NCBI RefSeq assembly: GCF_026210795.1
Contig: NC_089429.1
Location: forward strand, 1,054,001-1,118,000
DNA length: 64,000 nt
DNA from: Rhizophagus irregularis
Taxonomy: Eukaryota; Glomeromycota; Glomeromycetes; Glomerales; Glomeraceae
Reading direction: 5' to 3'
The position numbers were made by a program, and so were the translations under genes. Below the pieces are notes generated by a model. The model was not told the DNA's origin. It was given only the letters and a program-made list of their open reading frames with translations, and searched no databases. Shown here piece after piece: positions 980 to 58,860 of this stretch (position 1 is its first letter; each line of letters starts with the position of its first letter).

Positions 980-1835
980 GAAGCCGGGCAAACCTAAAAA
1001 ACATCCAAAGAATCATTAGACCTAAAAAAAGGTACCAAAATTTAAAAAAAGAAAAGAAAAAATGATTAGTAATTATGAAAAAGAATTTTTTTAAAAAAAT
1101 TAAAAATATAATTCAAACTAACCTTCACTCTGAAAGGTACCACCAAAACCTAAAAAAGAGAAAAGGGGTGTTCCCTACAAAAAAAAAGTTAAATTAGTGA
1201 CATTTTTTAAAGTTTAAAATTCATTTTCAGAACTTACCCAAAGTTCTCAAAAATTGATCATCTACTAAAAAAAGAAAAGAATGAATCATCAATAATGTTT
1301 CGTTAAAGAAATAATGTTAGGAAAATATTATTTACCAAAATTTACATATGTCCAAGGTGTTGCAGTACTGTCTAAACTACAAAATATAGAACACAAAATG
1401 TTAGTTTTAATGTTTCATTTCATTAAGAAATAAAAAAAATTAATGAAAAACACTTACAAATTCCATGTCTGGAAAGAGCCAAAGAACCATCCTACAGAAT
1501 GCAAAAATAAACATTAGTAAACATTTTGTTAACTAACATTATGTTAAAAGAAGCATTTTAAAAGAACCTACTAAAATTTCACACGTCCAGAATCATGAAC
1601 AAACCATATAAAAAAGGAAGAAACATGATGTTAGTAAATGTTTTGTTAAAAAATTTTTCAAAGAAAAAATACTCACCACAATTCTGTTCGTGTATAAATT
1701 ATTCCTTATTCAGTTATCTAAAAAAATAAAAAATCAAACTGTTAGAAATGTTTGATTAAAAGAAATGTATTAAATCCTTCCTTACCAAATTTCCACGCGT
1801 CTGAAGACAAACCAAGAAAACCACTGATACCTAAA
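980..1835 (-). repeat. Tandem array of about seven exon-like units, period about 110 bp
   Basis: On the minus strand, units of roughly 35-48 bases at about 1784-1830, 1673-1721, 1566-1607, 1455-1499, 1332-1376, 1120-1160 and 980-1022 are each preceded by a T-rich tract ending in AG or similar. Several are followed by GTAAG, GTGAG or GTAAAT. The spacers share a motif close to CTTTAACAAAACATTACTAAC. Each core ends in a version of GAAATTTTG and can encode about 11-15 residues, for example SGFLGLSSDAWKF and LDSTATPWTYVNF. Some cores contain a stop, so this looks like a decayed tandem exon duplication rather than a working gene. Confidence 0.45.
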
Positions 1836-1840
1836 AAAAG

Positions 1841-2930
1841 AAAGCTTTATTTTTTGGGTTTTTTTTTGGTTTTTTGCATAGTTATTAAATACCTGTAATT
1901 GCTGTTATTAGAAATGTTCAATCCCCCTGGTAAAATCCTACTTTGAGAGCTGTGCAGGCATTAGAAATTAAAAATTAAATGTAAAAGAAAAGGTGTATTT
2001 TTTTTTAAAAGAAAGGGATTTTTTTTCGTCATATGGGAAAATTCAGAAACTGAAAAATATTTATTTTTTTTAAAAAAAAAAGAAAATGTGTCGTATGGGA
2101 AAATCCAAAAAACTTTTTTTTAAAAAAAACAATGACGATTGCTCAATAAATTTTTTATATTTTATATTACAATTAGTACTAATTGGATTAGTTGCTATAA
2201 TTTGTTTTTACGCCAATCATTTATGCAGCCTAATTCAAAATTGTATTGGGATTAGAGCTGCTAATCAATGTCAAATGATGCGCCACTCCGAATCCCTATA
2301 TAAAAATCTGTAGCACAGGGCGCAGACACATGATGATGGACGATCCAATTTAAATCCACCTTTTTATGCAGGGTAGTCTTAACGTCACGGTCGCACAATG
2401 CTTTTTTTTTATAGATAGAGATTATACAATGTTTGTATTGACGATTTACATTATGAATTTATGATAATTAGTATAAAAAATATCAAGTGTGACATTTCCA
2501 CTGACTGATACCTTTAATAAATACAAAAAGCAAAGTAAAAATGGAGTTTTTTTATGCAAGGGAGAGTTTGAAGAAGGAACATTAATTAGCCATAAATTCG
2601 CATTGATTACGTATTTGCATGTTATATTAGCCATCCCTATAATGTGTGATGTGTAACAGGTTACGCCGAAATTTGTTGACTAAGTGGCGCGGTTAACTGT
2701 AATCGTCAAATTAACCTAACAAAATTGACCAAAAAAACTTAGAATTTTTTTCGTAAACAGACAATAAAAATAAATAAATAAATACTATTAGGTTTTTTAT
2801 CAATAAAATTTCAAACCGTCATAATGATTATATAATGATGGATAAAGATGCTCACTTGGTCCTGCGGTTTTGTATGGCATGCCGCTTGTTAGAACTGGGT
2901 ACTGAGTTGACAAAAGATCAGCATCGGGTT
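1841..2930. other. Intergenic, with one copy of a dispersed repeat
   Basis: This stretch is AT-rich with poly-T and poly-A runs. A block at about 2506-2590, containing ATGCAAGGGAGAGTTTGAAG, recurs at about 8070-8145. No convincing coding sequence was found. Confidence 0.5.
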
Positions 2931-2939
2931 GATTTCGTG

Positions 2940-3540
2940 AAGAATTTTTTTTTCTTTTTTTTTATTAACTTTTTTTTTTATAAAATAAATTTTTTTGGTA
3001 GAGAATTTTTTTTATTTTTTTTAATATAGGTAAGGCTTTTCTTTGATAGAATTTCTCTGGGAAATTTTTTTTTGATAGAAAGATTTTTTTTTTTTGATAA
3101 AAAATTTCGTTAGAGAATTTTTTTATTGATACGGTAAGGGAATTTCTTTTAATAGAGGAGTTTTTTTTTTGATAGATATTTTGTTGAAGAATTTTTAATA
3201 AAGAGAATTTTCTTTGACAGATAATAATTTTTTTTAACAGGAGAGATTTTTTTTAATAGTGAATTTCGGTAAAGCATTTTTTTTTTATAGAGGAGAGTTT
3301 TTTTGATGAAGAATTTCTTTGAGAATTTTTTCTTTGTAGAAAATTCATTGAAGAATTTTTTTATAATAGGGAAGATTTTTTTTTTATAATAATAGAGTTA
3401 AGTTTTTTTTTTGATAAAGAATTTCATTGAGAATTTTTTTCTATAGAAAATTCATTGGATCAGAACTTTTTCTTGATAGATAATTTTCTTTATAAAAAAT
3501 TTCTTTTGAGAATTTTATTTAATAGGTGAAAATATTTTTT
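2940..3540. repeat. T-rich degenerate minisatellite
   Basis: About 600 bases consist of irregular repeats of a unit close to GAGAATTTTTTTTGATAGA (about 20 bases), with variable T-run length. It is not coding; the short open frame at its left end is only the repeat read through. Confidence 0.75.
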
Positions 3541-4753
3541 GGTTAACGTCTTTTACCACAACCCAAATATGTAAAGACATAAATTGAATAACGAACTTAA
3601 AAGGAAGAAGAGGCGGTGGAAATATTAATAAAGAGTTGTGCGAGAATAATGTATATAAAGAGCGTAGAAATGATATTGGGAAAGTAGAAAATCAAAATTC
3701 AAACCTTCAACGCTGGCTGCGAGAGGCGCAGCAAAAAAGGATTTCACATGGTAATGATGCAAAAAAAGAAAGTATCCTAGTGGCAAAAGAACGAATCATG
3801 TCAGAGAAGAATGAAAAGTTGATAAAAATAATATTTGGAAAAGAAAGAAAAAGAGAAATTATTAAAACGTAACAAAAAAAAAGACCAAAAAAGAAATCAG
3901 CATAAGATCAGATGAAGGTCATGGGATCAACACAGAAAAATACTGTGCTCAGTCATGTAAATTGTTTGTTCGATTAGATGGAACAAAGAAATGATGATTA
4001 AAGCTCTGAGTCTGTGTAAAGTTGTAAAGCACCTTAGTTTAAAAAACAACATAAATACCAATCAGCAAAAGTTGTTATTCACCTAACTAATTAATCAATT
4101 TAGAGGAAGGGGAAAGAACGTCACATGTAAAGAATCTTCGATATCAATACTAGTACTGATAAGACTTAATCAAATTTTTATTTTTAGACGGTTTCTCACT
4201 GACTTTAAATTATTAGAGAATCATGACATTTTCAAAGGGTTTCATATCGAAAATTACCTGATGATGTCAAAAATTTGTCAGTTTGGGACAACAGTGATGA
4301 AATGATATATTTTCAAAAAAAATAATTTTGATGAAAGGCAAGATTTTATGATCATGTCGATATCATGTCATATTGGAAAAAGTGGTAAATTTATGTCATG
4401 TAGTGGAATGATTTGCTGCTATAGGCAAATTGGATTTTCCACTACTATCTTGGCATTCTTGGTATTATACTTTAATTTTTTATTGCCGGAAGAAACATAC
4501 TGTGATTCCTTTAATCTTTCATTAATAATGATTACTCGTATCGCAAATTACTATTCTGTATTTCTATGAGCTATCAGATATTCTATATTATTTGGTAATG
4601 ATTAGTTGGATTATTAATAATGTAAAAGGCTTCCTCATAAACTGATATAATATGAATTTTGTTGCAGGTACTGTATTTAGATTGTCCCATTTTTACTTTA
4701 CATTCATGAACTTCTATATTACATCAGATTATTAAAATATGTAACATGTTATT
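3541..4753. other. Intergenic with a possible gene remnant and F-box 3' flank
   Basis: An open frame of about 77 lysine-rich codons (about 3639-3872, plus strand) has no ATG at its start and is at most a remnant. A stretch at about 3905-3965 (GATGAAGGTCATGGGATCAA) resembles about 8375-8425. Positions 4664-4753 nearly match 14470-14571, the 3' flank of the next F-box gene, showing that the duplication of the two genes included flanking DNA. Confidence 0.5.
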
Positions 4754-53568: not shown

Positions 53569-53582
53569 AGCGTGATTAATAT

Positions 53583-54695
53583 TTCGTCGAACAAAAATGT
53601 TAAAGAAACAAAGAAAAATTCTTCACGCAGGAGGTTCATTGAAAGGGAAGATCGTCGAAATTCCGGTTAAAAATAACAACCGCCATGAGATATATGGAAG
53701 ATAATTTTGCCGATACATCACGTGAAATTACGTTTATGGACGAAGAGATATATGAATATATAAGAGATGTCGGTTACGTGGAACAATTAAAAGTTAAACG
53801 ATGTTATAAGTATAATACGATCAAGGCCAATATTCGTTTTACTAAAGATTATGAACAAATTATTTTGCGAGGAGGCTCCAATATTATTGTAGTCAGAAAT
53901 GGTCGTCAATATTTTTGCAGAATGTTTGACTCGAAATTGACGCCACGTGAATCAGCGAAAAATTTAGATGGCAAGCGATTAAGAAAATCATGATTGGTAA
54001 CGAGGTAAAAAATGAAACTATTATTAAGGAAAACATTAAGAAATACAGCGGTCATTTTGGTAAAATAATTAGGATCAACAAAATTAAATATATCCTAATA
54101 TATTTTAACAACGAAAACGATATTATGAAAGCCGTAACAATTCTGCGATATAATATGTTAGGAAAGAGCTTACAAGTGAAAACACAAGACGATTTGATTG
54201 ACAAAGACGGTAGTTTTAAGAAACAGAGGACTCATAAGACGACACCAAACAATAATTCTAATCATCTATCGGAGGATGAATAATTTTATGAAGCAACGGA
54301 TAGTCTTACGGGTTAGACGGTCCAAAATACAAATAAGGTTGAAGATTTTAATAAATTGAATGAGGTTTTTAGTGACAGAATTAACGAGAATAGTGGTAAA
54401 ATTGATGGATCAAAAGGTAAAGAAAAAGCAGGTATAACTTTGAACGAAAATAAGAAACGCATTACGCAAAATCAGGGTGCTAGGGAAGGCAGTGATAATG
54501 AGTAAATACACAATAGAGTGATCTTTAGTACTATATTAGACTTTTTACAACATATCTAGGTTTTTATAGTAAAGATTCAAATTTTGTATTAGATAGATAC
54601 TTTATTGACACAATGTATTTACTTACGTTGACATTGGAATTAATTTCGTTTGTAATTATTCCAATACTAATATAGTTATATAAAAAATAAAAAAA
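53583..54695 (+). mobile_element. Retroposed RRM-like ORF, copy A (about 1.1 kb)
   Basis: The flanks AGCGTGATTAATAT (53569-53582) and AGCGTGGTCAATAT (54696-54709) match at 12 of 14 positions and could be an aged target-site duplication. The right end is A-rich (ATAAAAAATAAAAAA). The content is colinear with copy B at 57541-58843. Confidence 0.5.
53597..54505 (+). pseudogene. RRM-like protein gene, copy A, frameshifted
   Basis: ATG 53597 begins MLKKQRKILHAGGSLKGKI. Frames then switch near 53690, 53985 and 54285. Coding segments align with copy B: DVGYVEQLKVKRCYKYNTIK (B: KVGYIERLEVKWNYKYKMVR), GGSNIIVVRNG (B: GGSNIVLTRND), GHFGKIIRINKIKYILIYFN (B: GHFAKVIKINKFKYILIYFN) and the C-terminal NENKKRITQNQGAREGSDNE (B: NKNKKRVVTTQGQREDSDSE). 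KYILIYFNNEND resembles an RNP1-type strand of an RNA-recognition motif, and two such domains are likely. Copy A extends about 50 codons further 5' than copy B. It is disabled by at least three frame changes. Confidence 0.65.
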
Positions 54696-54709
54696 AGCGT
54701 GGTCAATAT

Positions 54710-55827
54710 GATAAGGCAGTGGGTAAAATTTATTTATTTATTCATCGATGCGTTTTTAACAACTTACAATATTTGCAATTATTTTTTTATTTAATTTAGT
54801 AATGGAAGTGAGATTCGATTCAGTTCATCATATCTTCTTTCATTACCAGCAAATAATTAAAAGGAGTTATTTGAATTGATAATAGTGACGTTTTCTAAAT
54901 GAAGACATTGTACTATGTTAAGACCAAAAATAGAAAAAGCACATTTTAGAGAAGTTTTATTGGTCTATTTATCACGTTAATAATGCTGAAATTATCACCT
55001 TAGCAAGACAAAAAGGATTTGGTAATTAATTATTTATCATACTGCATTATTTCGTAACGAATTTATGTTAACCTATCATTATCTTTAAATAGCAAGTAGG
55101 TCAAAAATAATCCATCATTCTCTTTAAAACGAAGAAATTTTATTAAATCATATTAGCAAGTGTAAGAGCAATACTAATGAAACGTACTATGTATTTATGT
55201 ATTCTAACAGTCGTGGAAATTTTTACGCCAAGATTTGCCAGATTTACGAAACAAAATTTTTTTTATAAATTTGCAATTAATATTTTTTTTTTTATGGGAA
55301 AAATAGAAATCGTTTATAAATTAATTAATATTAAGTAAATTAGCACATAAAATCTTGATATTTACATTGGAACCATTTACTCATTATTCACGAGGCGAGT
55401 AATAAACATTTAGCTAAAATTAACAAACTTCTACTCAAAAAATTTACTCTAACCAAAATTGGGATGACTATTTTATTCAGTTAAACTCTTACCTAGAAAC
55501 AAAATATGATTTATATATATTCCACATAATTAATTACTTTTTATACAAAAATAAGTAAATTTATTGGATATAATAAATGAAATAAATTATCGTTATCTGT
55601 TATAATTTCAGTAATAATGCATCGATAAAACAAGTTATTTTTATTTCTATTATTAAGACAAAGTACAGAGGCGTAGTTAAAGTAAGTCATAACTGAGAGT
55701 GGCTTTTTTTACAAATCCAAAGTTTATATATTATATTTATTATTGTACAAGGAAAACGTTAATTCATTGCAAATACATACATAAATAAATAAGATAAATA
55801 TTAAAGGCAAATATAAATAATTACTAT
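54710..55827. other. AT-rich intergenic
   Basis: No coding sequence or ordered repeat was recognised. Confidence 0.4.
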
Positions 55828-56600
55828 GATTTGAGAAATAAGGATTCTTGAAGATATGGTCCACTACCGTCAACAATTTCAATAGAATTAATAATTTGTC
55901 TAATTTCAGATAATTCTTCAGAACTAAGATTAACTTTTACTGCTTCAACATTTTATTCCAAATGTTTGCTTTTTCTTGTTTCAGGAATAACAACCATATT
56001 ATTTCCCTGTAAAAAGTATATAATTTTAAATAAATGTTATGATATTAAAATGTAATAAAATTTTAAGGTTAATACTTACATGAGCAAGAATCAAAGGTAA
56101 ACAAAGTTGACCTAAAGTTACGTCTTTCTTTTTCTCATTAAATTTATGTACAACTGCTAATTTTTATTGACATTTTCACCTTGAAAACGTGAAATCATTC
56201 TTCTAAAATCATCTGATTTAAAATCATCAATATTTTTCCTAAATAAATAAATATATACATACATATATTTGTAAATTGCTAGTAAAGTACAATTTAAAAA
56301 ATGATAAATACTGTTAGAAATCCACGCTATAGTGATACAAGCTTCTATAATTCCATTTTTTTCAATATTCAATCTTAAAAAATAATATTAATATAGATCG
56401 AAAGGGTTAATATTAATCATGTTAAATATTAATAAAAATTGATATACTTACTTCAACTACTTGAACTGCGGCAATAGGATGAACTTTATACAGAATATTC
56501 AGAAAGAACAATATATTTAACTTTTCCTTCCTTAACAAGTTCTGCTAGAGCGTTAACAGAGGTCTTATGCACAGTACCATTACAAAAAGTTACACATTAC
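55828..56600 (-). pseudogene. Aldo/keto reductase gene, disabled and 5'-truncated
   Basis: Aldo/keto reductase segments in order on the minus strand: VNALAELVKEGKVKYIVLSE (about 56500-56570; active relatives read IGLSE), a segment with FDDFKSDDFRRMISRFQGEN (about 56157-56230, resembling the RRxxPRFxxEN part of the AKR13-like group), VTLGQLCLPLILAH (about 56075-56130, followed by a GTAAGT donor) and NNMVVIPETRKSKHLE (about 55950-56010) with the C-terminal NVEAVKVNLSSEELSEIRQI. Lesions: TAA right after YSV, TAA after KHLE, and missing N-terminal exons with the catalytic Asp/Tyr. These are NADPH-dependent carbonyl reductases in working form. Confidence 0.75.
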
Positions 56601-57523
56601 TGATAACAAAAATTAATTATAATTTAATTAAAAATTTTAAATTAAATGGTTAAATTATCTTAAAATTAAAATAAAGTGACCCTAAAGAAGTGTTCCGAAA
56701 TTAAAGGTTACATTTTATCTTTAATGAACTCATCTAATCTTACACTAAATATATTAACATGTAGTTGTTTGAAAGCTTTACGAATTATTAATGAAAAATG
56801 GCCTGTTAAAGGTACCAACTTTTTTTTGCAAAATATAAATTTATTTAATATCAATATTGTTTTATTTATACACATGTTCCTTTTATGAATCAAAGATAAA
56901 TTATGTGGATACCCTACTACATGTAAAACTTTCTAAGTAAAATATCCAGTTTTTTAATGGGACCAACAGATTGATCAATAATAATCAGAACTGTTGCTAT
57001 TATAATTGGTTGTATTTCATATTAAAAAACCAACATGTAAATATAAGAAAGCAGCCAATCTAGAAAGTTAGTGTTCTCATATTAGCCAGCCAGATAATCT
57101 AATAGATCTTTAAATCCATCTAAATAAAATTAAATAGCTTCCAAAGTATACTAGTTGATTGGTAATATATCATATGATTGCTTGATCATATTTCGTAATA
57201 TACCTCATTTTAAAACCACAAAAAAATAAAATTTTACAACTCATATTACGCGAAACATTCAAAAATAATCCTGGAATAGTTTGTTATAAAAATAGATTTG
57301 AAGATGATTATAAAAAAATTACAATTCGTTTCTTTTCATATGATTCTAGTAATATTATATTATTTTACATTGCTTGACTAATATCTAAACAGAAATTATA
57401 ATCACAAATGATACTATCAATATAAAATCTAACAGTAAATGTAAAGCAAGAGAGCTCTTATTTTTTAAATTAAATTTAATATGAAGGATTTATTGTCAAA
57501 TAATATATTATAGTTATTTATCC
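56601..57523. other. AT-rich intergenic
   Basis: No gene was recognised. Short open frames near 56676-56893 exist on both strands and are not protein-like. Confidence 0.4.
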
Positions 57524-57540
57524 TAAACTAGTAATATGAG
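57524..57540. repeat. 17-bp target-site duplication of retroposed copy B, left
   Basis: TAAACTAGTAATATGAG is repeated exactly at 58844-58860. Confidence 0.93.
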
Positions 57541-58843
57541 TTTTGAAGTTTTATGATTTTCCTGCTTACCGGAAAGATGAAATTATATACGAGCTTTTAA
57601 AGAAAGTGGGATATATAGAAAGATTAGAGGTCAAATGGAATTATAAATACAAAATGGTCAGAGCCAGGATTCGCTTAACAAAAGAAATGGAAGAAAAATT
57701 TCAAAAAGGTGGATCCAATATAGTGCTAACAAGAAATGACCGTACGTGTTTTTTCAGACGCAAAAATGGACGCTTCAGCAATTAAAAGAAGATATGAATG
57801 GCAAGCATATAGAAAATTGGATATAGAGGAATTAGAAAAGAAGGACAAGGAAATTATTAAAAATTACAATGCAACCTTCGGTGGACACTTTGCCAAAGTG
57901 ATCAAAATAAACAAATTTAAATATATTTTGATTTACTTTAACAATGAAAATGATTTATTAAATGCAATTTACAGATCCACAATGGTAGAAGATTTAGGAA
58001 AAGGTTTAAAGATAAAACTTCAAGACGAATTGATTGGAGATAAAGGGACGTACAAGCGAAAAACAGGAATAAACAGATTTAAAGTGCCAACACAAACAAA
58101 GAAAGATAAATTTGTTGACGCCCAATCTGATATTCTATCAACAATACCGCGAACAGAAGAAGAACATGCAGATTTTGACGCCTTGAACAATAATTTCAGT
58201 GACAGATTGAATAAGATTGAGAAGAAATTAGACTTGCCAAAAGGAAAGGATAAGAAAATGGAAGAAAAAGATGACATTAACAAAAATAAAAAACGCGTAG
58301 TGACAACGCAAGGACAAAGAGAAGATTCCGACAGCGAATAAACAAATTTGTCCAGAAAATATTATACAAAATCAAGAATATTTCCTTTTGATTCAACATT
58401 TGAATCTGATAGAAGATACGACAAATAATTAGAGTATAAAATTAGACGCTATCTTAGGTATTTTCATCAATAGTGTAGTTTTAAATTAGAATTTTTTTTG
58501 ATGACAAAATTTTTTCGAAAATTTTTTATTTTTACAATATCATTTTTATTTCAATAGATATAAATTAGCAAAGCCTCTACTTTTTAGAAAATATTAAAAA
58601 CTTACAAAAACATAGTAAAATTGATTTAGTAATGTAGTTTAGGAAAAAACAATATTAATTTTTAATCAACACAATTATTATTTTTAGTTAGATTTTAAAT
58701 TAGAAAACTTAGAATAGATATACTTTAGTTATAGAGGGTATTATATTTTAGATATAATATTTTCTAGGTGTTTTAATATTTTGTATTGACTTTTGTATAC
58801 AAAATTAATAAACGCGTTACTAATTTCTTTTAAAAAAAAAAAA
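57541..58843 (+). mobile_element. Retroposed RRM-like ORF, copy B (1.30 kb) with A-tail
   Basis: The segment is bounded by a perfect 17-bp direct repeat and ends in TTTTAAAAAAAAAAAA before the right copy. These are hallmarks of target-primed reverse transcription. It carries one RRM-like ORF and about 500 bases of 3' noncoding sequence, but no reverse transcriptase. The 5' end falls within the coding frame, as in 5'-truncated retroposons. It could be a processed pseudogene of a host gene or an ORF1-only LINE derivative. Confidence 0.88.
57543..58341 (+). pseudogene. RRM-like protein gene, copy B, one frameshift
   Basis: Frame 1 runs 57543-57785 (DEIIYELLKKVGYIERLEVK, GGSNIVLTRND). Frame 2 runs to the stop at 58341 (WQAYRKLDIEELEKKDKEII, GHFAKVIKINKFKYILIYFN, DLGKGLKIKLQDELIGDKG). 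Comparison with copy A puts a short deletion near 57745. Two RRM-like folds are followed by a basic linker (KRKTGINRFKVPTQTKKDK), a coiled-coil-like stretch (SDRLNKIEKKLDL) and a charged tail ending EDSDSE. The layout, RRMs then basic or coiled region, recalls LINE ORF1 proteins. No ATG precedes the first frame because the copy is 5'-truncated. Confidence 0.7.
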
Positions 58844-58860
58844 TAAACTAGTAATATGAG
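58844..58860. repeat. 17-bp target-site duplication of retroposed copy B, right
   Basis: TAAACTAGTAATATGAG follows the A-tail and is identical to 57524-57540. Confidence 0.93.

Follow-up and report, generated by a model that had tools for sequence, protein, structure and literature searches.

Two retroposon copies in the window

The DNA analysed here (the window) is a 64,000-nucleotide stretch of the Rhizophagus irregularis genome, covering positions 1,054,001 to 1,118,000 of contig NC_089429.1. It contains two 5′-truncated copies, A and B, of elements that we refer to as “half-LINEs”, i.e., non-LTR elements that encode an ORF1-type protein only (Table 1). Each copy retains pieces of a related reading frame.

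Copy B has a reading frame that is now split in two, and its flanking repeat, TAAACTAGTAATATGAG, is found on the plus strand of the window only at the two flanking positions. At the DNA level, copy B is 73–79% identical, over most of its length, to its four best other places in the genome. Relatives reach their own 5′ end 0.9–1.2 kb upstream of the point equivalent to position 57541, meaning that copy B is truncated inside its ORF. Thus, the 17-bp duplication, A-run, and truncation within the ORF that were originally predicted for copy B are all borne out. The original prediction also listed a 14-bp degenerate duplication around copy A as probable; the two flanks agree accordingly, and the element that they enclose fits the predicted start. 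Copy A is 73% identical at the DNA level to another locus (L077) over 690 bp.

Copies A and B are colinear and their ORFs are related, as first proposed, but their proteins are only 41% identical and their 3′ tails differ. The two copies fall into two sister families, H4 (copy A) and H1 (copy B), rather than into a single family.

Table 1. Features of the two half-LINE copies in the window
Feature	Position	Strand	Remarks
Copy A, 5′-truncated half-LINE, family H4	53583–54695	+	ORF pieces 53643–53993, 53951–54283, 54317–54505
Copy A, left target-site duplication, degenerate, AGCGTGATTAATAT	53569–53582	+	12/14 versus right copy
Copy A, right target-site duplication, degenerate, AGCGTGGTCAATAT	54696–54709	+	12/14 versus left copy
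Copy A, 3′ tail type T3, A-rich end	54560–54695	+	28 genome places including its own
Copy B, 5′-truncated half-LINE, family H1	57541–58843	+	A-run 58832–58843 included
Copy B, left target-site duplication, TAAACTAGTAATATGAG	57524–57540	+	Exact 17-bp direct repeat
Copy B, right target-site duplication, TAAACTAGTAATATGAG	58844–58860	+	Exact 17-bp direct repeat
Copy B, ORF remnant, first RRM-like unit	57540–57785	+	Stop-to-stop frame; matches L003 core, modelled as RRM
Copy B, ORF remnant, second frame: second RRM-like unit, linker, acidic end	57730–58341	+	203 aa open
Copy B, 3′ tail type T1, hairpin and long-range helix, terminus GCGTTACTA	58722–58822	+	Common to LINE subclade 1; covariation

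Half-LINE families in the genome

ORFs related to those of copies A and B occur at ~160 places in the genome, in at least five families (H1 to H5; the labels are our own). The second frame of copy B has at least 150 protein matches. Such protein matches come exon by exon and represent lower bounds. Core protein identity between families H1, H2, H3, and H5 is 27–43%.

Full-length half-LINEs measure ~2.2–2.7 kb, and full-length copies with an unbroken frame are present in the genome. Unbroken copies contain one ORF of 530–694 aa and no reverse transcriptase (RT). Similarly, ORF lists revealed no RT ORF inside half-LINE copies that are bounded by a duplication. In a search for two-ORF LINEs that scored 48 of 1488 candidates, none of the 53 scored RT matches was preceded by a half-LINE ORF on its own strand at a distance of up to 9 kb. 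Downstream of one LINE, at 6.5 kb, there is a half-LINE ORF that belongs to a separate element. SINEs do not code; an element of this length with a conserved ORF does not fit a class that is short and non-coding. Rfam returned no match at the gathering score for five loci.

Hallmarks of retroposition

Copies of families H1, H2, H3, and H5 end in A-runs that lie inside duplications of 15–18 bp. Among 31 H1 loci examined, 24 have a recognizable tail and A-run, and seven have no recognizable tail. An exact repeat of ≥15 bp spans the element in 12 of the 24 tailed loci, with a shorter repeat or none in the remaining 12. Since copy B was chosen for its repeat, we also counted without it, giving 11 of 23. 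In a control with cross-paired flanks (n = 870), repeats of ≥15 bp were found in eight pairs (0.9%) and repeats of ≥12 bp in 78 (9%); therefore, repeats of 9–12 bp prove little by themselves. Duplications were also found in three of six H2 loci (16, 18, and 15 bp), in H3 (15 and 15 bp), and in two H5 loci (17 and 15 bp).

A count of copies with A-tails and duplications had been suggested as a check on the original prediction, and such copies proved to be numerous. Copies A and B are thus neither the only processed copies, given the ~160 related places, nor the only ones with duplications. The proposal of an ORF1-only retroposon family is further upheld by the existence of autonomous LINEs that share the half-LINE tails.

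Partner LINEs and shared 3′ tails

The 3′ tail of H1 (T1) is common to L1-like LINEs of ~8 kb, while H2 and H3 carry another tail (T2) that is common to a second LINE subclade. By this measure, candidate partner LINEs are identified for three families: H1, H2, and H3. One such LINE, L016, has open, overlapping ORF1 and ORF2; in another, L015, ORF2 is open and ORF1 is split over two frames. Each has a 16-bp duplication. The ORF2 of L016 matches the Pfam families RVT_1 (2.2e-26) and Exo_endo_phos (5.4e-9), and its nearest solved relative is human L1 ORF2p (8e-27). L016 is an autonomous L1-like LINE by all its features: ORF1, ORF2 with endonuclease and RT, a duplication, and an A-tail. The partner ORF1 has a CCHC knuckle-like match that falls below the Pfam cut-off.

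T1 occurs at 40 same-strand places in the genome, a count that omits two short opposite-strand rows. Nineteen are found downstream of an ORF2 C-terminus, all at a distance of no more than 503 bp and 18 at no more than 144 bp; eight follow a half-LINE ORF and 13 follow neither. For T2, the corresponding numbers among 25 places are six, eight, and 11. No T1 or T2 place follows both types of ORF. For T3, the tail of copy A, a search for a partner LINE gave none, with no ORF2 match at the seven places fetched of 28.

The T1 tail folds with clear covariation. In the fold, 92.1% of cells are paired versus 79.7% after shuffling, and the covariation score is 0.389 versus 0.188; in each case, none of 500 shuffles is as high. 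Slid versions of T1 are 40–65% paired. One covariation measure gives a weak result: the number of double-change pairs is 11 versus 9.0 for shuffled alignments, with 27 of 500 shuffles reaching 11. Because an L1-type machinery of the relaxed kind could accept RNAs whatever their tail, tail sharing is to be read as association and not as recognition.

The 5′ ends also show similarities. The start AACTCT is common to 12 aligned leaders, with exceptions, and is shared with LINEs in most of the leaders seen; the H3 leader also has TAGAATTCCGCAG in common with LINE1.

One H1 locus, L006, appears to have exchanged tails. L006 is 91% identical to another H1 copy, L001, over the element. By contrast, in the last ~150 alignment columns, it matches the LINE L016 at 126 of 134 positions (94%) and L001 at 94 of 141. 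We considered a nested insertion as the source of the LINE-like tail and rejected it, since a single 16-bp duplication encloses the whole chimera, both element and tail, and there is no A-run at the junction. L006 thus ends in a LINE tail that replaces its own.

The encoded protein

The half-LINE protein consists of an N-terminal part, a coiled-coil-like stretch (identified by eye), a basic stretch, two RRM-like folds, and a charged end. The two folds, which were part of the original prediction, are also predicted by an AlphaFold2 model of the H1 core. Pfam gave no RRM match, and nothing above the curated cut-off, for the half-LINE proteins submitted; a PDB profile search with the core returned no match at E-values up to 10. 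We describe the product as a putative RNA-binding protein of the ORF1 type.

It had also been proposed that the element is ORF1-only and has the layout of a LINE ORF1. The first part holds, there being no RT; as to the second, the partner LINE's own ORF1 has no significant similarity to the half-LINE protein. Using hhalign, the probability was 1.1% for the whole proteins and 6.9% for the cores, the latter colinear over 137 columns; neither value is significant. The predicted layouts of the two proteins are similar. A comparison with another LINE ORF1 gave 3.8%.

Half-LINE ORFs are under purifying selection. dN/dS ranges from 0.096 to 0.506 in 18 pairs from H1–H3 and from 0.13 to 0.28 in six H5 pairs, with 22 of all 24 pairs at or below 0.35. 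Three pairs of LINE ORFs gave 0.155–0.235. When split H1 copies are compared with L001, dN/dS is 0.14–0.24 for the RRM-bearing C-terminal pieces and 0.31–0.51 for the N-terminal pieces.

Possible mechanism and alternative explanations

Copies A and B very probably represent dead elements from a large half-LINE lineage that is mobilized in trans by an L1-like LINE. This reading draws together the shared tails, T1 covariation, duplications, truncations, one tail exchange, purifying selection, predicted RRM-like fold, and lack of RT in bounded copies. We propose that a full-length half-LINE gives rise to one RNA encoding a single putative RNA-binding protein, and that the folded tail at the 3′ end of this RNA is the one also worn by the L1-like LINE. 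The ORF2 protein of the LINE, with its endonuclease and RT, would recognize the tail in trans, nick the target, and use target-primed reverse transcription to copy the RNA of the half-LINE, leaving an A-run, a duplication of 15–18 bp, and, frequently, a 5′ truncation. The half-LINE protein itself most likely acts in cis, coating the RNA that encodes it in the manner of ORF1p; such a role would account for the selection that preserves its sequence.

There are several other ways to account for parts of these data. First, half-LINEs may have arisen by deletion, as HAL1-like descendants of an L1-like LINE that had this very ORF1; the descendants would have retained it together with the two ends, but not ORF2. 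We consider the chances of such an origin to be even; because it concerns origin, it would leave the mechanism unchanged. The 3′ tails, start motif, and leader sequence that half-LINEs have in common with LINEs all argue for it. So does the ORF1 of another LINE found here (L047), which has a Pfam RRM match (5.3e-6). In addition, a weak model of the LINE ORF1 core (pLDDT 66.5) predicts successive beta-alpha-beta units, the last two of which seem to be ordered like the half-LINE core when secondary-structure lines are compared by eye. The lack of significant homology to the partner ORF1 is a point against this origin, as is the lack of any upstream half-LINE ORF among the RT matches of the candidates scored.

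Second, the half-LINE protein could serve the LINE, which would need it, such that the two form a two-part retrotransposon. In its favour, half-LINE ORFs show purifying selection comparable to that seen for the LINE ORFs, and each of two LINE subclades has its tail type in common with half-LINE families. However, the LINEs have a full ORF1 of their own, including the knuckle-like match, leaving no gap for the half-LINE protein to fill, and we regard this arrangement as improbable.

Third, the ORFs could have originated from a LINE ORF1 and become domesticated or effector-like genes that simply travel with LINE fragments. Powdery mildew EKA genes, related to the ORF1 of the LINEs Satine and Kryze, are described as multicopy ORFs co-opted from a fungal LINE ORF1 (PMC4641428), and half-LINE ORFs are likewise conserved. 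EKA candidates are reported to be truncated ORF1s that lack a nucleic-acid-binding domain and are treated as effectors, with positive selection in the groups analysed (PMC4641428). In half-LINEs, by contrast, the RRM core is present and conserved, with lower dN/dS in the RRM-bearing pieces of split H1 copies than in the N-terminal ones, and the elements are complete ORF1-only retroposons, many copies of which have their own duplication, making an EKA-like history very unlikely.

Lastly, the copies could come from a host RRM gene that was retroposed repeatedly, i.e., they could be LINE-made processed pseudogenes of an ordinary mRNA; we consider this the least credible account. Unbroken frames, A-runs, and duplications are also typical of processed pseudogenes, the predicted fold is similar to that of tandem-RRM proteins of the host, and an intron-bearing progenitor may exist. 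Points against it are the ~160 places in five sister families, LINE-type tails within the transcript in H1, H2, and H3, the start motif shared with LINEs in most leaders seen, and the tail exchange in L006.

Returning to half-LINEs mobilized in trans, the data also raise a broader picture, which we put at slightly less than an even chance: an old, radiating ORF1-only lineage in arbuscular mycorrhizal fungi, with at least five families descended from one RRM protein that selection maintains because it works for its own RNA. Such a lineage would persist by following its LINE partners, one after another, through their tails, and could change partner by capturing a new LINE tail in one template switch. 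L006 exemplifies such a change for a fresh LINE tail; for longer times, it is suggested by H2 and H3, which have distant proteins and one tail.

Relationship to known elements

To our knowledge, the main half-LINEs described so far are the HAL1 elements of mammals, with HeT-A as an example from a special setting. We found no literature joining the words arbuscular mycorrhizal, LINE retrotransposon, and ORF1, a result that holds for these words only; in a word search, the main texts of the R. irregularis transposable element papers examined contain no occurrence of “nonautonomous”, “non-autonomous”, or “ORF1”.

HAL1 is non-autonomous and encodes ORF1p only (PMC5753468). The elements described here resemble HAL1 in these respects and in their probable dependence on L1-type machinery. 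HAL1 is a derivative of L1 that arose several times (PMC5753468); here, at least five families belong to one protein lineage, the ORF1 of the partner is a different one, and a covarying 3′ tail is common to passenger and LINE. Our best reading is of a HAL1-like design that has undergone a multi-family radiation. Drosophila HeT-A is a non-LTR element that encodes a Gag-like protein only, beside relatives encoding Gag and RT, and that transposes only to chromosome ends (PMC3776773). Half-LINEs likewise seem to lack RT and to exist beside fuller relatives; unlike HeT-A, they are interspersed at interior places with target-site duplications. In SINE/LINE pairs with stringent recognition, a stem-bearing tail is common to both partners, and poly(A) ends occur in stringent LINEs too, e.g., SART1 (PMC3747384). 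Half-LINEs resemble such pairs in sharing T1, which is structured, and T2 with LINEs; the half-LINE passenger differs in encoding a 530–694 aa protein under selection.

Two-thirds of R. irregularis transposable elements are reported to be unclassified (PMC11075540), and half-LINEs would assign part of these repeats. A fungal LINE passenger that is non-autonomous and encodes a protein, with several sister families and partners identified by a shared, covarying tail, would be a natural experiment on why such a passenger keeps a protein. Its families would also provide a record of tail capture.

Two sister families in the window

The original prediction described two copies of a single RRM-like retroposon family, here called half-LINEs (ORF1-only elements that lack a reverse transcriptase [RT]). 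The 17-bp duplication around copy B is confirmed, with TAAACTAGTAATATGAG present exactly at 57524-57540 and 58844-58860 and nowhere else on the plus strand of the window. For copy A, the degenerate 14-bp duplication was recovered as well, AGCGTGATTAATAT (53569) and AGCGTGGTCAATAT (54696) being alike at 12 of 14 positions. The view of A and B as one family stood only in part: their ORFs, broken in both copies, are related, but because the proteins share 41% identity and the 3′ tails differ, we assign the copies to two sister families. The exon-like minus-strand pieces between them are reminiscent of an aldo/keto reductase.

Coordinates and members of half-LINE families and associated elements (L-numbers are loci fetched from the genome; T1 is the tail of H1)
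Feature	Position	Strand	Remark
Copy A	window 53583-54695	+	5′-truncated
Copy B	window 57541-58843	+	5′-truncated
A-run of copy B	window 58832-58843	+	seen in the sequence
Pieces between A and B	window 55820-56600	-	exon-like
T1 tail, L068	1235-1325		nothing recognizable upstream
T1 tail, L070	113-226		nothing recognizable upstream
Frames beside LINE, L016	412-789, 8724-9989 (oriented)		presumed Sel1-like repeats
LINE, L017	2474-5125 (oriented)		5′-truncated, T1 tail
Half-LINE, L017	6024-8545 (oriented)	same as LINE	own tail cut off by other sequence
Half-LINE, L003	~1114-3700		within minus-strand ORFs
Family H1			copy B's family
Family H2			L002, L013, L049-L052
Family H3			L063, L064
Family H4			copy A's family
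Family H5			L079-L083

Families and protein layout

The searched genome comprises 146.7 Mb in 32 contigs. Copy B gave 50 matches as DNA and 150 as protein (E ≤ 0.01); a protein query from a third family had 69 (E ≤ 0.001). Grouping the hits of both protein searches by start position and strand, with a 2.5-kb limit, puts related ORFs at 160 places on 26 of the 32 contigs, a rough count for which only part of the candidates was scored and in which the weakest matches may be non-members. We distinguish five families, separated by ORF and tail. Identity in the RRM core is 27-43% among H1, H2, H3, and H5; H4, outside this comparison, is represented only by copy A and by seven fetched places that share its tail; in five of them the alignment to A extends past the tail.

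A full-length copy (~2.2-2.7 kb) consists of the 5′ start, a short leader, a single ORF, a 3′ UTR, the tail, and an A-run. Unbroken frames, measured stop to stop, reach 530 (L002), 631 (L063), 651 (L001), and 694 aa (L079); in many other copies the frame is broken. Between its N-terminal part and its charged end, the protein runs through a stretch that looks coiled-coil-like by eye, a basic stretch, and the conserved core. Sequence searches detected no RRM in it. The predicted pair of RRM-like folds is supported for the H1/H2 core by an AlphaFold2 model from 14 aligned cores (mean pLDDT, 79.8), which has two such units in succession. Among the PDB matches listed, most are tandem-RRM proteins (NONO, Sex-lethal, HuD, poly(A)-binding protein), with low TM-scores when both domains are taken together (no higher than 0.49 of the query). 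One H1 subgroup (L001, L003, L006, L010, L017) appears to carry its N-terminal domain in tandem duplicate, the halves cross-matching.

Marks of retroposition

Further genomic copies with duplications and A-tails were found in H1, H2, H3, and H5. Tail and A-run are recognizable at 24 of 31 H1 loci checked, copy B included, and absent at seven. An exact 15-18 bp repeat spans the element at 12 of the 24 tailed loci (11 of 23 without copy B). When flanks of different loci were cross-paired, repeats of at least 15 bp arose in 8 of 870 pairings and of at least 12 bp in 78 of 870; shorter repeats than 15 bp were therefore left out of the count. The complexity filter of this count also removed a 15-bp repeat at L010. 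Element length across the 12 loci runs from ~490 to 2600 bp, the usual picture of 5′ truncation. In H2, repeats measure 16 (L002), 18 (L013), and 15 bp (L051), and just 10-11 bp at L049, L050, and L052. Two H3 loci have 15 bp each; L065, recognized by its H2/H3-type tail alone, had no repeat. The H5 test covers L079 (17 bp) and L080 (15 bp), with L081 and L082 lacking an A-run in the fetched stretch and that of L083 falling outside the range.

Shared tails and partner LINEs

We show that half-LINEs are associated with LINEs. A genome search with copy B's T1 tail yielded 42 rows, 40 of them kept as places once two short rows on the opposite strand were set aside. Nineteen of the 40 come no more than 503 bp after the C-terminus of an ORF2 (144 bp or less for 18 of them), eight follow a half-LINE ORF, and 13 follow neither. 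Six of these 13 were fetched: four run into a half-LINE 3′ UTR and two (L068, L070) are tail only, and may be copies truncated almost to nothing or an additional kind of passenger. T2, the tail of H2 and H3, occurs at 25 places: six after ORF2, eight after half-LINE ORFs, and 11 after neither (two truncated H2, four H3, five unassigned or unfetched). Five of the six lie within 152 bp of the C-terminus; the sixth, L055, is 2.8 kb past an RT match and aligns with other T2 LINEs across the ORF2 end. Mean column identity of T2 across its LINEs, H2, and H3 is 86% (15 tails used; 18 sought, 16 matched), and the bodies have no comparable similarity. T3, the tail of copy A, occurs at 28 places; no ORF2 was found at the seven fetched, with ORF2 probes ill suited to distant LINEs.

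Two places (L011, L012) match copy B over its final ~130 bp alone. They have ~730 bp in common, with the tail at its end and an ORF inside; used as query, this ORF hit open frames as long as 2119 aa. Two LINEs of ~8 kb, L015 and L016, each lie in a 16-bp target duplication. ORF1 (703 aa) and ORF2 (2094 aa) of L016 are open and overlap; L015 has an open ORF2 (2119 aa) and an ORF1 split over two frames. ORF2 of L016 has matches to Exo_endo_phos and RVT_1, and its closest solved relative is human L1 ORF2p. L016 is inserted in an ORF of presumed Sel1-like repeats, which the frames on both sides of it carry. RT matches of T2-tailed LINEs (contigs C4, C13, C23) are 41-53% identical to L016, and we thus call these LINEs a second subclade.

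Two T1-tailed LINEs (C17:1385555, C24:2813960) have equal scores and equal ORF2 lengths (2119 aa), a hint that the autonomous partner has multiplied recently. At L017, the half-LINE lies 0.9 kb 3′ of the LINE. The ORFs around the L003 half-LINE look like a Gypsy-type LTR element, with a CCHC knuckle and protease-like and RT-like parts.

Tail fold, tail exchange, and a common start

For the T1 fold, 35 loci were sought, 33 matched by pattern, and 30 aligned (L034, L038, and L039 left out). RNAalifold gave a hairpin and a long-range helix. Scored on the alignment from which it was taken, which favors the structure, the fold has 92.1% paired cells versus 79.7% in shuffles and a covariation score of 0.389 versus 0.188 (each 0 of 500 shuffles as high). 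Further pair types were matched by 2 of 500 shuffles; double-change pairs, the weakest measure, numbered 11 versus 9.0 (27 of 500 as high). Slid partners were 40-65% paired. In the long-range helix, GUGUUU changes with AAACGC, GUGCUU with AAGCGC, and GUAUUU with AAAUGC, the last version being common to LINE L016 and half-LINE L006. Double changes occur in 7 of 38 T2 pairs, where strong conservation weakens the test.

L006 is 91% identical to half-LINE L001 over the element and tracks it up to alignment column 500. In columns 550-700, a range reaching into the A-run, it matches LINE L016 at 126/134 positions and L001 at 94/141; L001 matches L016 at 93/141. A single 16-bp duplication encloses the entire chimera. 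Read most simply, reverse transcription switched templates between half-LINE and LINE RNA, or the two recombined beforehand.

The short motif AACTCT stands at the start of all 12 aligned, hand-picked leaders (T1 and T2 LINEs, H1, H2, H3, H5), and H3 and the T1 LINEs have a longer piece, TAGAATTCCGCAG, in common. Variants are GACTCT (L010, L081) and AACTTT (L002), with neither in L049. Among three T2-tailed LINE loci, L045 starts with AACTCT and the others have only a TCCGCAG part.

Constraint, mechanism, and known systems

Nei-Gojobori dN/dS is 0.096-0.506 in 18 pairs within H1, H2, and H3 (16 at or below 0.35; the top two values, 0.506 and 0.421, come from an N-terminal piece and a young pair, respectively), 0.13-0.28 in six H5 pairs, and 0.155-0.235 in three LINE ORF pairs. 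These ratios are rough because broken copies entered as their open segments and dS exceeds 1 in several pairs. Constraint on the half-LINE protein is about equal to that on the LINE proteins.

Sequence comparison detected no homology between the half-LINE protein and the partner ORF1; both cores were modeled with successive RRM-like units, the LINE model being weak (pLDDT, 66.5). No LINE carrying the half-LINE protein as ORF1 appeared at 53 RT matches (up to 9 kb upstream, same strand; 48 of 1488 candidates scored). One RT match has a half-LINE ORF 6.5 kb downstream. Word searches of two R. irregularis transposable element papers and keyword searches of one literature library returned no description of these half-LINEs.

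Most likely, the LINE ORF2 protein would recognize the tail of half-LINE RNA and insert a copy of that RNA in the genome, with the half-LINE protein acting in cis as a coat for the RNA that encodes it; both the recognition and this cis role we infer. In its working the half-LINE resembles stringent SINE/LINE pairs (PMC3747384); it is not itself a SINE. HeT-A, coding for a Gag-like protein only (PMC3776773), works similarly but, unlike the half-LINE, is telomeric. The predicted parallel with mammalian half-LINEs holds for the mode of working, and descent from the present partner is at most a possibility: like HAL1, which codes for ORF1p only (PMC5753468), the half-LINE is an ORF1-only element.
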